From Candidatus Babeliaceae bacterium (lineage in GTDB: Bacteria > Babelota > Babeliae > Babelales > Babelaceae), in assembly GCA_007116155.1 (NCBI GenBank), contig SKJC01000002.1:1-64000 (forward strand): a DNA stretch of 64,000 bases, written 5' to 3'. The notes under the pieces were generated by a model. That model was not told where the DNA came from, made no database searches, and saw only the letters and a program-made list of their open reading frames with translations. Shown piece by piece: positions 31,416-37,111 of this stretch. Position numbers and translations under genes: made by a program. The stretch's first letter is position 1; each line of letters begins with the position of its first letter.

Positions 31416-33476
31416 CTACGGGCCAATCCCAGGAACTCTTTTTAAAAGAGGTAGATAGCTTCGTAAGCTCTTAAAAGACAAGGCTTGTAGTTTCGATTGA
31501 TCAAAAATCATAGGCGCTTGGGGCGGTTGTGCATCCAACGACAACGGATTTTTTTGCTTTGATACACCGATATCCCCTTGATCCAGCCCCAATGGGAATA
31601 ACGGTTTAATCAAACCCTCTATTTCTTTATCCAAATTGCCACTCAGTCCCAGTTGCTGAATTTGCTGAGAAGTAAAGTTTTTCGCTCGCAATTGTGCAAT
31701 AAGAAGATTTTTTGCATCAGATTCGGACACCATTTCTGATGATCCGTCAGAAAAGGAAATCTTCTTATTTTTACCCGTCTCTCCCTTATCAGAAATTTCT
31801 TCAATAGAAACAATCGTTTTTATTGGAGCTGTTATGCTTTCAGCCAGACCTTTTAGGCGATTTTCCTGAGATTGCAATTGCGCAGTTAGCTTCTTATTAC
31901 GCTCTTCCAATGAAGTTACCCTTGATCCATCTACTTGAGCATCCAAAGCATTCTGCTGCTCTAATTCCAAATCCGACCTTAGCCCCTCATTCGCTAATTT
32001 CAATGAAGCAACTTCTTGCTCCAAGCTGCTAATACGCTCGACTTGTTTTTTTAACCCATCGATAGTTACTTTTTGTGAAGTCTGCAAACCTGCTAATTCT
32101 TGATTTTTAGCTTCTAACTGACCTCGCACTTCACGCTCTTTTTCTAAATTAGCTTGCACCTGAGAAAGCTCATTATCTTTTTTCTGCAACTGTTCATCTT
32201 TCTCGCGTATCGTCTTTTGCAGCTGTTCAACCGTAGCATCAAGAGTCTGCTTTGCTTCCTGATTAGCTTGAACCTTTTTTTCTAACTCACCAATTTTTCT
32301 TCGCAATGATTCAACTTCTGTTGCTGAAGCACCTAACGCCGCAATCTGCACTCTGGCTGCAACTAATTCATTTGTGAGCGTTTCATTAGTTTTACGAAGT
32401 GCTTCTTGCGCTTTATTCTGATCTTCCAAACGTTTTTCTATTGCCAATTTTTCTTCCTGTAGCTGACTTTTCTCGCTCGTTATTTTTTTTATAGCTTCTT
32501 CCATTGAAGATACCTGTTGCACTTTCTCACCAAGCTGTTTCAGCTGCGCATCTACATTCTTTTTTTCACTTTTCAATCTATTAATTTCTGTATTTTTTTC
32601 CTCTAAAAGCTTTCTTTGCTTTCGTTCTTGTAGCCTAATGCTCCCCAGCTCCTGCTGTAATTTTTTCAGTTCATTCTGCTGCTTACTCGACCCAGAAAGG
32701 CCTTGCTGTTTTTGTTGCTCTATACGTTCTCCTAATTTTTTATTCTGGTCAGCCAACTGTTTGACCTTAGTTTTTAAAGTAGCAAGCTCAAGCTTCTGTT
32801 GTTCTATTGTTGTTTCTAAGCGATTTTTTTCCATATCTAACTTAGTACTTAAATCATCCGGCTTCTTTTTATCTTTGTCAGCCAAGCGATCTCTATCCTG
32901 AGCTTCTAACTCCACCAGCCGTTTTTGTAATGCTTCAATCTGGTCTTTTGAATCAGCAAATAATTGATCATTTTGTTCTAGTTTATCCAAAAATTCTTGT
33001 AACTGTCCGAGCGGATCGCTCTCTTTCTGGGCAAAACGAATACCTTTGTTCTGTTCAAAAAAGTTCAACAATTTTCGTATCAACTCAATTGCAACGTTTA
33101 ATTCCCGCTCAATTTTTGCTAACCAAATACCTTTTGCTTTCGTCTTATCTATTTCATAGGGATATACACCCGTTATTTGTTTGAACAGATTTGTCCAAGT
33201 TTCATTGGTCGTATCAAATACCATCCCGGGTGTAAAATATCCATCTGCAAAACGACGCATCAATTCATTCCACGGAAAGCCCAGCTTATACTGCAAATTT
33301 GATAACGATTGACGCGCGCCTGCAATGTCAAAACGTGCTAATGCTGAACGCAAAGAAGCGGTTAACGTGGTAACATCAGGCCCGCGCTGCGGTACAGGAA
33401 ACAGATCTGCTGAAAAAGGAGCCTGAACCAACCCGGCACAGCTCAATATCAGCAATGCACTATATCGTAGTTTCAT
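31416..33476 (-). CDS. Long exported coiled-coil protein
   Basis: The 686-residue product has a signal peptide (YSALLILSCAGLVQA, cleavage near residue 19-22) and an N-terminal globular part (about 30-150). A very long coiled coil follows (about 150-560), rich in Gln, Glu, Lys and Leu. A C-terminal non-coiled domain ends in PLLKRVPGIGP. It is the third gene of a set with 33508-35541 and the barrel-like gene 35543-37111. A fibrous periplasmic or surface role is likely. SMC-like similarity would only reflect the coiled coil. Confidence 0.75.
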   Translation of the reverse strand: MKLRYSALLILSCAGLVQAPFSADLFPVPQRGPDVTTLTASLRSALARFDIAGARQSLSNLQYKLGFPWNELMRRFADGYFTPGMVFDTTNETWTNLFKQITGVYPYEIDKTKAKGIWLAKIERELNVAIELIRKLLNFFEQNKGIRFAQKESDPLGQLQEFLDKLEQNDQLFADSKDQIEALQKRLVELEAQDRDRLADKDKKKPDDLSTKLDMEKNRLETTIEQQKLELATLKTKVKQLADQNKKLGERIEQQKQQGLSGSSKQQNELKKLQQELGSIRLQERKQRKLLEEKNTEINRLKSEKKNVDAQLKQLGEKVQQVSSMEEAIKKITSEKSQLQEEKLAIEKRLEDQNKAQEALRKTNETLTNELVAARVQIAALGASATEVESLRRKIGELEKKVQANQEAKQTLDATVEQLQKTIREKDEQLQKKDNELSQVQANLEKEREVRGQLEAKNQELAGLQTSQKVTIDGLKKQVERISSLEQEVASLKLANEGLRSDLELEQQNALDAQVDGSRVTSLEERNKKLTAQLQSQENRLKGLAESITAPIKTIVSIEEISDKGETGKNKKISFSDGSSEMVSESDAKNLLIAQLRAKNFTSQQIQQLGLSGNLDKEIEGLIKPLFPLGLDQGDIGVSKQKNPLSLDAQPPQAPMIFDQSKLQALSFKSLRSYLPLLKRVPGIGP

Positions 33477-33507
33477 ACAACTCCTTTTTGCAAAATCTAT
33501 CGCCTTA

Positions 33508-35541
33508 CTACTTTAATTTCTTTGCTGCTTCTGCGGCAAATCCAAGGGCCTGGTTCCCCCAACCATAACTTGCGGATGGGAAAGGAGACGAGTATTGCCC
33601 CCCAAAAGAATTTGTGCCTAAAACCGTGCCTCCTCGATTAGTAAAATCATCGGGATTTATCCCCTGCTGCAATTTATTAGACCTACCCAAAGAGTCAGAG
33701 CTATCCTTTTCTAAAGGTTTTCCCATAGGTGGTATTTTTACGTGACCATCTGTTTGAAAAAACTTTCCCAACCCTAATATATTATTCCCACCTGAAAGAT
33801 CAAACTGCTCTCCAGACTTCTCATTCCACTTTGTCTTTGGCAAATTTTGCACTTTTGGCATTGGTTGTTGCACCTGCCGCACTAATTTTTCAAGCTGCAA
33901 ATCTCGCTCTGTAATAATGTTCTTCTGCGCTTCTAATGTTTTTTCTTTTTCTTTCAACTCTTTCTGAATTTTTTCAAATGACGCGGTACTGTCTTTTAAT
34001 CGATTCTCAAGAGCGCTATATTTCTTCTGATTTTGCTCTAATTGTTTTTGCAACGCTTCTTTTTCACGTGTGGCTGCAGCAATCCTCTCTAATTGTGCAC
34101 TATTGGCATTCTCTATGTTTTTCAAGGAAGCTTCTAGCGACTGTACTTGAGAATTCAATTTATTTTTTTCTTCTTCTATAACTGTTTTCTGATTAGCAAT
34201 TGTTTGATTTTGCTCTCGAACAGCATTCAGCCTTTCCTGCATCTGTTGTTTTTCTTGTTCAATGCCGCTCAATTGTCCTTTAACCTGAGCAAGCTCCTGC
34301 GCTCGCTGTTCTAATTGGGCAACTTGTTTGTTCGTTTCCTGTGCTTTTTGCTCCAATGCTACTTTCTCGGCCTGCAACCTACCTACTTGATCAACTATTT
34401 CTTGCTGTTTCTTATTCAGCAATTCTTTGTCTGCTTTTTCTTTTTGCAACTGCTCTTGCAACGTTCTTATCTCTTTTTGAACTGCCTCACGCGCAGCTAT
34501 TGCGTCTTTCGCTTGCTGTGCCATTGGCTCAAGCTTTTTCTGAATCTCAGCAAACTTATCAGTTACTTCTTTCTTTTCTTGTTCAAGCTTTTGTACTTGC
34601 CCACGCAATTGTGTTTCAGTTTCATCTTTCTTGTTTGCTGCTTCAATCAACTCTTTTTTCTCTCGAACACTTTCAGCGATCTGCGAAACTTTTTCCTGAT
34701 TAATTTTTTCAAGCTGCTCGTTTTTCTTTAATAGTTCTTGGTTTTGTTTGTGCAATAATTCAACCTGTTCTTGCGCGAGCTTCTTTTCTTGTTCAAGTTT
34801 TTTATTTATTTCTACCGCTTGTTTATTCTGAGCTTCTAATTTCTTTATTACTTCTTGCACCTTACTACTTGCTTCGCTTGCCGATTTTTCTTGTTGAGCT
34901 AGCTTTTTATTAACCTCTTCGATTGCCTTCTTCTTTTCCATTAACTCGTTTTGAACCTTCTTAAGACTTTCTTTTGTTGAATTTAACTCTGATATTCGTC
35001 CCGCCATTTCATTACGATCTTTATCTATTTGCTCTATTCTTGCTTTGTGTTGAGCTACTTGCTCTTCCGCCTGTTTCTTTTCTTGTTCAAACTTTTTATT
35101 TGTTTCTTCAGTTTGTTTTTTCTGAACCTCAAGTTCAGCCTTATACTTCTCTTCTAAAGTTTTTTTTGTAGCCTCTGCTTCTTTACGCGCCTTTTCAACC
35201 GCGCTCTCTTGTTTTTTTAGTTGCGCTTGTAATTCAGCATTTTTTGCTTCCATAGCAGTCTTATTTTCAGCTATAGCTTTTTGCGCTAATGCGACGAACT
35301 CTGTTTTCCAATCTTCTTTTTCAATGGCTGTTTTAAATTCCGTCAATTGCTCAGGTAATGTTAAAGTTTTAAACTGAGCAACGTTATATAGTTGCGCTGT
35401 TCCCAACAACTCGCGAGTTTTGTTAATTACTTGCTCAATAATTGTTAATGGATCATTTTTCGCAAAAGCACCGGCAAAAAACGGCCTAGGCACCAGTACT
35501 ACAACAACCAATCCAATCCATAACCCCCATATTTTTTTCAT
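33508..35541 (-). CDS. Long exported coiled-coil protein, partner of the next gene
   Basis: The 677-residue product has a signal peptide (WIGLVVVVLVPRPFFAGA) and a short N-terminal domain (30-90). A coiled coil of about 450 residues with many Lys-Lys-Gln and Glu repeats follows. The C-terminal tail (about 560-677) is glycine-, serine- and asparagine-rich and ends in an Ala/Lys helix. It begins one base after the barrel-like gene ends and is 31 bases upstream of the second coiled-coil gene. The three are probably one operon. Confidence 0.75.
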   Translation of the reverse strand: MKKIWGLWIGLVVVVLVPRPFFAGAFAKNDPLTIIEQVINKTRELLGTAQLYNVAQFKTLTLPEQLTEFKTAIEKEDWKTEFVALAQKAIAENKTAMEAKNAELQAQLKKQESAVEKARKEAEATKKTLEEKYKAELEVQKKQTEETNKKFEQEKKQAEEQVAQHKARIEQIDKDRNEMAGRISELNSTKESLKKVQNELMEKKKAIEEVNKKLAQQEKSASEASSKVQEVIKKLEAQNKQAVEINKKLEQEKKLAQEQVELLHKQNQELLKKNEQLEKINQEKVSQIAESVREKKELIEAANKKDETETQLRGQVQKLEQEKKEVTDKFAEIQKKLEPMAQQAKDAIAAREAVQKEIRTLQEQLQKEKADKELLNKKQQEIVDQVGRLQAEKVALEQKAQETNKQVAQLEQRAQELAQVKGQLSGIEQEKQQMQERLNAVREQNQTIANQKTVIEEEKNKLNSQVQSLEASLKNIENANSAQLERIAAATREKEALQKQLEQNQKKYSALENRLKDSTASFEKIQKELKEKEKTLEAQKNIITERDLQLEKLVRQVQQPMPKVQNLPKTKWNEKSGEQFDLSGGNNILGLGKFFQTDGHVKIPPMGKPLEKDSSDSLGRSNKLQQGINPDDFTNRGGTVLGTNSFGGQYSSPFPSASYGWGNQALGFAAEAAKKLK

Positions 35542-35542
35542 A

Positions 35543-37111
35543 TCACCACCCTACGCTCAAAGAACAGACAAAACCCCATTTTTCAGAAGCTCTATTGCCA
35601 AATAATCCATCCAACAACAACCCAGCCATACAATTAACCGGTCGATCACGCATATGCCCCGTATGACGCATCATAAAAAATGCACCAACATCAAAAGACG
35701 GCTCCATCAGACCACTTTGCCAATCAACAGCATTAACACCAATTGATACACTATCCCATCGATCAAGCGGCAAATCGGCTTCAAAAAACGTGTCTCTAAT
35801 TGTCCGTGCGGCACTAAGCCGCTTAGCATTATTAACCATAGAACTTTTTATTGCGCCATCGAAAGAACAAGGCACAATTAATCGCTCACCGCCTGAATGC
35901 ACTCCCTGCAGACCAAAGACAAAATTGCCCCGCTCAGCTGCAAACTCAAGCGCAAGCATTGTGTGCGCAACTACACCTGGAAGTATTTTTACGCACCGCG
36001 TACAATGATTAACTCCCGAAACACCGCCACCACTTGCAGTTGAATAAGATGCCGCCTGATCTTGCGAAGCAAAAAAACCCATATACCGACTCCAAGGCTT
36101 TCCTTGAAGATCAAAGGAGCGATATTGTTGCCGAGAAAAAAAATACTGCGCATCAGCAGCAGCATGAACTGTACACCCAACATACTCATTATCAAGCACG
36201 GGACATGAGCAACCAGCCCCGGCAAACAGACCAGTATGCCCCCCATTGCCTAATAGCGGTTGATACACCCATTCGGCAGTCTGCGATGAATCACCCGGCA
36301 AAACAGCCCCGCCAAATAGATGTGCCTGAATTCCCTCACATAATGATGAAGAATAACCAAGTGTACACTCAATATCACCTACTCCTGATGCATCAAGAAA
36401 CGACGGTGCACTCGCACACCCATTAATTTTCCCAAATCGCCAATTAGATTGACAAAACGCATCAGTTGCAGACGCAACAAACGGAGCCCCATCTAATCCT
36501 CGCTCACCGCTAGCTGCTTGTACTGATTCCGAGACTCCCGTTTCATGCACATTCATACGATTTTTACGAATTCCAATGGGAAGAGAAACCGACACCCATA
36601 AATCACCAGATTCAAAACAATATACCGGCAAAAAACAAGCCGCATGCACTCCCCAAAAACTTGTCTCGGGCATAAAAAAGACCGTACTACGAAACTCATC
36701 ACCAGTAGTGTTAATATTAAGATGGATTGCTTGTACATCAGCCCCAGGCCCCAACAACCCATATGCTGCCGCATTTGGATCCATTTTATTAGAAATATGA
36801 ATCCCATCCGTACAGATTCCATTGCCAGCAATACCAAATCGACGAGCAACTTGACGCGATCCTCGTGAAGTTCCGCTAAACGCAAATGGCATAAACGTTA
36901 TTGCCGGACAACCTTCCTCCAATAGCACATCACGCGAAAACCAAGTTAATGGACTGGCAACAGAAAAAACATCATAGGTATCTAAAAAGACTGATTTTGA
37001 AGGATTTGCGCCCTGTTTACAACACGCACTAGCGCCATAAGAACTTTCCGAAAAGATATATGCACTTTGCAAAAGCGCAAAAAGCAGAAACGTGCTCAAT
37101 AGATTTTTCAT
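35543..37111 (-). CDS. Cysteine-rich outer-membrane beta-barrel-like protein
   Basis: The 522-residue product starts at ATG 37111 behind GAGGCGG (the frame opens at 37129). After a signal peptide (LLSTFLLFALLQSAYIFS) it shows alternating aromatic/hydrophobic strands, many glycines and about 18 cysteines. A terminal strand ends in aromatic Trp (CSLSVGW), as in outer-membrane barrels. It heads the three-gene set with two exported coiled-coil proteins. Composition resembles the 50449 protein, suggesting one broad family of disulfide-rich surface barrels. Confidence 0.65.
   Translation of the reverse strand: MKNLLSTFLLFALLQSAYIFSESSYGASACCKQGANPSKSVFLDTYDVFSVASPLTWFSRDVLLEEGCPAITFMPFAFSGTSRGSRQVARRFGIAGNGICTDGIHISNKMDPNAAAYGLLGPGADVQAIHLNINTTGDEFRSTVFFMPETSFWGVHAACFLPVYCFESGDLWVSVSLPIGIRKNRMNVHETGVSESVQAASGERGLDGAPFVASATDAFCQSNWRFGKINGCASAPSFLDASGVGDIECTLGYSSSLCEGIQAHLFGGAVLPGDSSQTAEWVYQPLLGNGGHTGLFAGAGCSCPVLDNEYVGCTVHAAADAQYFFSRQQYRSFDLQGKPWSRYMGFFASQDQAASYSTASGGGVSGVNHCTRCVKILPGVVAHTMLALEFAAERGNFVFGLQGVHSGGERLIVPCSFDGAIKSSMVNNAKRLSAARTIRDTFFEADLPLDRWDSVSIGVNAVDWQSGLMEPSFDVGAFFMMRHTGHMRDRPVNCMAGLLLDGLFGNRASEKWGFVCSLSVGW

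Follow-up and report, generated by a model that had tools for sequence, protein, structure and literature searches.

An operon-like set of a predicted outer-membrane barrel and two exported coiled-coil proteins in Candidatus Dependentiae

Introduction

What could three adjacent genes, one for a barrel-like protein and two for long exported coiled coils, build at the surface of a bacterium? Dependentiae are widespread and are nearly all uncultured parasites of protists; in the literature that we searched, none of their outer-membrane proteins was found with a described function. The three genes lie in a stretch of 64,000 nucleotides (hereafter the window; positions 1 to 64,000 of contig SKJC01000002.1, assembly GCA_007116155.1). 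The window belongs to a 0.75 Mb genome of Candidatus Dependentiae (Babelota), whose closest named relative is the MAG Candidatus Dependentiae UBA12474. A first-pass annotation had suggested that the three products build a surface fibre, tether or envelope spacer that is not a known secretion or pilus system. Here, we weigh this suggestion against the predicted structure of the proteins, the recurrence of the gene pairing in related genomes and the composition of the proteins involved.

Results

The open reading frames bore out the genes, order, positions and spacings first described. Head to tail on the minus strand, the barrel gene (35543..37111; 522 aa from the ATG chosen in the first-pass annotation, 528 aa from an alternative upstream start) is followed by the genes for P0002 (33508..35541, minus strand; 677 aa) and P0001 (31416..33476, minus strand; 686 aa), at spacings of 1 and 31 nt. 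A single base stands between the stop codon of the barrel and the start codon of P0002 (tga t atg), and AGGAG, a likely ribosome-binding site, precedes P0001 (33481..33485, minus strand). Because of the one-base spacing and the good ribosome-binding site before the third gene, a single transcript is likely, and the set, rightly called operon-like, is probably one operon. A promoter scan at the locus gave fewer sites than in shuffled sequences. Two tRNA-Arg genes lie upstream and dnaA downstream. Searches of the three proteins against Pfam, NCBIfam and PADLOC gave no real match, to known periplasmic proteins or otherwise, and returned coiled-coil noise only (SMC, Rad50, JetC).

P0001 and P0002 both have a signal peptide, as called by a heuristic; P0002 has no cysteine and P0001 none after its signal peptide. 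Coiled coils were located by COILS-type scoring, calibrated on shuffles, and by power at period 3.5. The rods span residues 157-551 of P0001 (31824..33008, minus strand) and 83-559 of P0002 (33865..35295, minus strand). The COILS-type coiled length was 394 residues in P0001 (shuffle maximum 149) and 477 in P0002 (shuffle maximum 313), and power at period 3.5 reached 9.9 against 2.4 and 12.2 against 2.8, respectively. Both proteins are thus true heptad coiled coils, well beyond chance. The earlier picture of two exported coiled coils of about 680 residues, with a glycine-rich C-terminus in P0002 and non-coiled ends in P0001, is therefore sound; the lengths were right, and only the word giant was loose, given a 1504-aa version in a sister species.

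In that sister species, which is of the same genus, a single 1504-aa gene occupies the slot after the barrel. The head of its product is 40% identical to P0001 over 75 residues, the matching part of P0001 being its N-terminal domain (residues 25-83; 33228..33404, minus strand). The homologous rod has about 395 residues in P0001 versus 1254 (about 1250) in the sister species, that is, about 59 nm versus about 186 nm if straight. Such three-fold growth between sister species makes a fixed-length radial spacer unlikely. Of the fibre, tether or spacer first suggested, what stands is the association of a barrel with exported coiled coils, and a spacer of constant length is what loses ground. The AlphaFold model of P0001 is mostly of low confidence (pLDDT 61, pTM 0.31); it is helical throughout, with breaks at residues 201-206, 259-263, 381-384 and 514-519. 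In view of these breaks, a rod folded back on itself as a hairpin is possible in such a model, as is a straight rod. In the C-termini inspected by eye, no hydrophobic anchor of membrane length was seen. The sister species also has a second exported coiled-coil gene near the locus, on the opposite strand (L024:17511-18911, plus strand; 466 aa), adjoining a gene for a 621-aa exported protein that contains cysteine.

The window barrel, the founding member of its family in this analysis, appears from sequence comparison to represent an order-wide Dependentiae family, which was found in 98 of the 104 genomes searched, mostly in several copies each. Named relatives are nearly all Dependentiae, TM6 or Babeliales, the others being MAGs labelled only 'bacterium'. 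Several family barrels also occur on a MAG contig labelled Gammaproteobacteria (L086, JARLJO010000067.1), which is probably mis-binned. The window barrel matched nothing in Pfam or NCBIfam, other members gave at most scattered weak Pfam matches, and a family profile found nothing among PDB sequences.

The AlphaFold model of the barrel, built with 64 aligned sequences, has a mean pLDDT of 86 and a pTM of 0.84, and 12 main strands were counted from its DSSP string. The protein is thus predicted with good confidence to be a 12-stranded barrel, putatively plugged, and it presumably sits in the outer membrane. A helix at residues 54-65 (36917..36952, minus strand) comes just before strand 1 (residues 72-82) in the model and is a candidate pore plug. 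At the end of strand 5, 54 of the 64 family members read PTG, and the window barrel reads PGD (residues 272-274; 36290..36298, minus strand). The last strand (residues 517-522; 35546..35563, minus strand) ends in an aromatic residue; a lysine stands five residues before it in 52 of 64 members, with serine at this place in the window barrel. Across the family, the terminal Lys (or Arg) tends to go with an acidic residue in the region of the candidate plug (two-by-two counts 41/2/12/8; Fisher p 9e-4, uncorrected for kinship). The window barrel lacks both residues, as does that of the sister species, which likewise reads PGD for PTG. With both residues lost and PGD in place of PTG, the window barrel looks like a derived copy. 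In the same genome, a paralogue (L025:6751-8421, plus strand) keeps the PTG and the terminal lysine that the operon barrel has lost.

When the model was searched against the PDB with Foldseek, FapF chains came first (E 7.9e-9, TM 0.68 by target), followed by the COG4313 channel 4rl8 (TM up to 0.72) and then by autotransporter barrels. A search of viral folds in BFVD gave generic barrels only. FapF is an amyloid secretion channel (PMC5557850, PMC6173800) and COG4313 an uptake channel (PMC4493636). Since the COG4313 channel shares both fold and PTG, the direction of transport, export or uptake, cannot be read from the fold. At the sequence level, homology to FapF was not detected by the family profile against PDB sequences or by Pfam. 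The COG4313-related Pfam family Phenol_MetA_deg (PF13557) matched only 1 of 64 barrel-family members (E 0.0046) and nothing in the window genome. An hhalign comparison with one COG4313-like sequence was not significant, and a plasmid search for further COG4313-like sequences found none.

The conservation of the pairing was surveyed in regions from 59 genomes of 15 families, with a mechanical ORF caller and the signal-peptide heuristic. For barrels shorter than 590 aa, the next gene on the same strand encoded an exported coiled coil 27 times out of 64, compared with 33 times out of 558 for other genes (p 6.5e-14); in another sampling, which overlapped in part with the first, the counts were 25/64 for barrels and 28/431 for other genes. 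An exported gene of any kind directly follows a barrel in 49-50 of the 59 genomes and in 12 of the 15 families (one of the 50 cases was a mis-called galE). The pairing is therefore not local but recurs across nearly the whole order, and the gene order is kept far beyond the genus. Spacing between barrel and partner stays tight while partner sequences change; the partners share little sequence and range from 95 to 1504 aa. A search for an N-terminal domain common to all partners failed, as a profile of eight partners matched few further proteins and neither P0001 nor P0002. Fusion of barrel and coiled coil in one chain was seen as one weak case only among all barrels. Among barrels of at least 590 aa, one sampling gave an exported coiled-coil partner for 0 of 10 and another for 2 of 6. 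Directly downstream of a barrel, L032:1350-2294 (minus strand) encodes an exported protein that resembles a ubiquitin carboxyl-terminal hydrolase, and L114:8665-9267 has ankyrin repeats in the corresponding position.

Cysteine sets the partners apart. It makes up 0.21% of their residues versus 1.22% in the remaining soluble exported proteins encoded in these regions, an approximately six-fold depletion. The value is lower in 39 of 43 genomes and was reached in none of 5000 within-genome permutations. Partners with a coiled coil (p 3e-8) and those without one (p 4e-5) are both depleted, and the effect persists when the family of the window is left out. Phe, Tyr and His are about halved as well.

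The barrels go the other way, with a mean of 2.8% cysteine versus 1.3% in other proteins. The 18 cysteines reported for the window barrel were counted again; the weight that the title of the first-pass annotation gave them is not warranted, as few of their positions are common even to the sister species. Members carry 2 to 54 cysteines, and the richest belong to a longer subtype (600-700 aa), which occurs in tandem arrays. Cysteine richness is thus, by sequence comparison, a loose family trait and no fixed feature of the window barrel. Such arrays, with four to seven barrels that mostly belong to the long subtype and carry at most 54 cysteines each, were seen at L070, L073, L083 and L101. The window itself holds a second family barrel of this long subtype (50449-52308, plus strand; 619 aa, 22 cysteines, cysteine-rich N-terminus), which is followed by an AAA-type ATPase-like gene and no coiled coil.

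Regarding the envelope, BamA is present in the window genome. LpxC, an enzyme of LPS synthesis, is absent from it and from 26 of 29 genomes, which agrees with the report that Chromulinavorax has no LPS genes (PMC6561590). Transpeptidases, which are peptidoglycan enzymes, are present, and most genomes have a single OmpA/Pal-type domain. SLH domains were found in 0 of the 50 genomes searched, with a positive Thermotoga control. DsbB is absent in 29 genomes; VKOR is absent in the window genome and present only in some relatives. Two genomes more than 90% complete, G003 and G018, gave no PF00905 transpeptidase; G003 keeps a barrel with a helical partner, and G018 has no barrel match.

Discussion

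We tentatively favor a reading in which the barrel of the operon would be a plugged channel of 12 strands in the outer membrane and would export or anchor the cysteine-free, rod-like partners encoded with it, in the manner of FapF. Partners of the P0001/P0002 type would reach the periplasm by Sec and remain there in an unfolded or a not yet paired state; from there they would go through the barrel or dock in it, as with FapF, and form fibres on the surface of a cell that lacks LpxC; the passage through the barrel and the formation of fibres are the steps that we infer. The fold match, the helix before strand 1, the PTG motif, the spacing of the terminal lysine and its co-occurrence with the acidic residue all point in this direction. 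So do the conserved gene order, the presence of BamA with the absence of LpxC, and the cysteine depletion of the partners. The latter is to be expected if a protein is threaded through a barrel before folding, as segments that contain disulfide bonds pass autotransporter barrels poorly (PMC5802855). Against this, sequence homology to FapF or COG4313 was not detected, and fold, plug and PTG are common to an uptake channel. Moreover, the window barrel has PGD for PTG and serine for lysine, fibrous proteins tend to be cysteine-poor anyway, and neither a FapF-type in-chain coiled coil nor a FapD-type peptidase was seen. Extended to the whole order, as a two-component route in which FapF-like plugged barrels secrete dedicated, fast-evolving, cysteine-free fibrous proteins encoded next to them, the proposal is more doubtful. 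If true, barrel-mediated secretion would gain a new branch, in intracellular bacteria of which most have no LpxC.

Somewhat unlikely, and next in rank, is an envelope scaffold. The barrel would then be one of the main proteins of the outer membrane, and the coiled coils, bound to it as rods or as a mesh in the periplasm, would make the envelope stiffer or set its spacing, in the way of Thermotoga Omp-alpha and Omp-beta. Rod and barrel genes are indeed paired in the secG-tyrS-ompA-ompB cluster of Thermotogales (PMC3387000), the partners have signal peptides and no recognised signal for export across the outer membrane, and the peptidoglycan enzymes mean that there is something to bind. However, SLH domains and an evident C-terminal anchor are missing, and rod length varies three-fold between sister species, with an even wider range of partner sizes elsewhere. 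The cysteine depletion is also specific to the partners in comparison with other exported proteins, which residence in the periplasm alone does not explain.

Mere co-expression is less likely still: the barrel would be a COG4313-type uptake channel for hydrophobic molecules, and the helical proteins co-regulated surface or host-interaction proteins that get to their place by a different path, for example type II secretion. In fold, COG4313 is no more distant than FapF, and it also has PTG; the ubiquitin hydrolase and ankyrin proteins occupy the same slot in other genomes, and Babela is reported to have a type II system (PMC4378268). Nevertheless, the recurrence of the pairing in 12 of 15 families, with closely spaced genes and changing partner sequences, and the specific compositional bias of the partners speak against it.

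In chlamydiae outside the host cell, disulfides cross-link the major outer-membrane protein into a stiff outer coat. A similar coat of cross-linked barrels with accessory coiled coils is very improbable here: the enrichment of barrels in cysteine and the long paralogues with up to 54 would suit it, but the 18 positions are mostly unconserved even in the genus, members range from 2 to 54 cysteines, and DsbB and, in the window genome, VKOR are absent.

Our ranking is thus a FapF-like channel, then a Thermotoga-like scaffold, then co-expression. The earlier observation stands and is more general than it first appeared. The barrel family with its cysteine-poor fibrous partners provides a first concrete hypothesis for the Dependentiae surface, and the pairing suggests that fibres or a skeleton may be built at the surface of bacteria in a way not yet described. 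If true, barrel-mediated secretion or the building of an envelope from rods and barrels would extend to another phylum.

Comparison with known systems

The first-pass annotation held that the set is not a known secretion or pilus system. No sign of a pilus system was found at the locus; as to secretion, the predicted fold, the candidate plug and the PTG motif of the barrel family resemble the FapF channel, so that this part of the claim needs tempering. In FapF, a plug helix of 13 residues, PTG at the foot of loop 5-6 and a Glu98-Lys401 bridge belong to a 12-stranded barrel whose chain ends at F406 (PMC5557850, PMC6173800). The Dependentiae barrels are predicted to have 12 strands and a helix before strand 1 as well, and most of the family, though not the window barrel, has PTG at strand 5; a second such motif, as in FapF, was not seen. 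The terminal lysine of most of the family is spaced as K401 is to F406, and as in the Fap operon of Pseudomonas the neighbors encode exported, fibrous proteins. In contrast, the in-chain N-terminal trimeric coiled coil of FapF is absent from the window barrel by coiled-coil scoring, no FapD-type peptidase was seen among the downstream genes scanned, and the partners are helical and mostly cysteine-free rather than amyloid repeats. The COG4313 channels (PF13557) agree with the predicted fold and, for most of the family but not the window barrel, in PTG, and perhaps also in their inserted N-terminus with an acidic residue, but Dependentiae barrels are about twice as long, have large loop insertions and are paired with exported helical proteins.

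Other systems combine rods with barrels. Omp-alpha and Omp-beta of Thermotoga are likewise products of adjacent genes, one for a long exported rod of coiled coil and one for a barrel; these genes keep their synteny throughout an order, and the partner is replaceable. Unlike them, Dependentiae rods carry no SLH domain or evident C-terminal anchor, their genes follow the barrel gene instead of preceding it, and the barrel model has 12 strands rather than the 22 predicted for Omp-beta (PMC9388160). SlpA/OmpM of Deinococcus, Thermus and others also combine a coiled-coil rod with an outer-membrane barrel, but in one chain with an SLH domain, whereas the Dependentiae genes are separate and lack this domain. 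Within the phylum, seven secreted proteins of Babela massiliensis with a cysteine-rich N-terminus and a 'beta-barrel' were likened to LDL receptors (PMC4378268). Compared by description only, they fit the long cysteine-rich paralogues of the barrel family; the text consulted describes no coiled-coil partners. In its possible mode of action, the Dependentiae pair resembles both Fap and the toga proteins, but by the features that define each of these systems it falls outside both.
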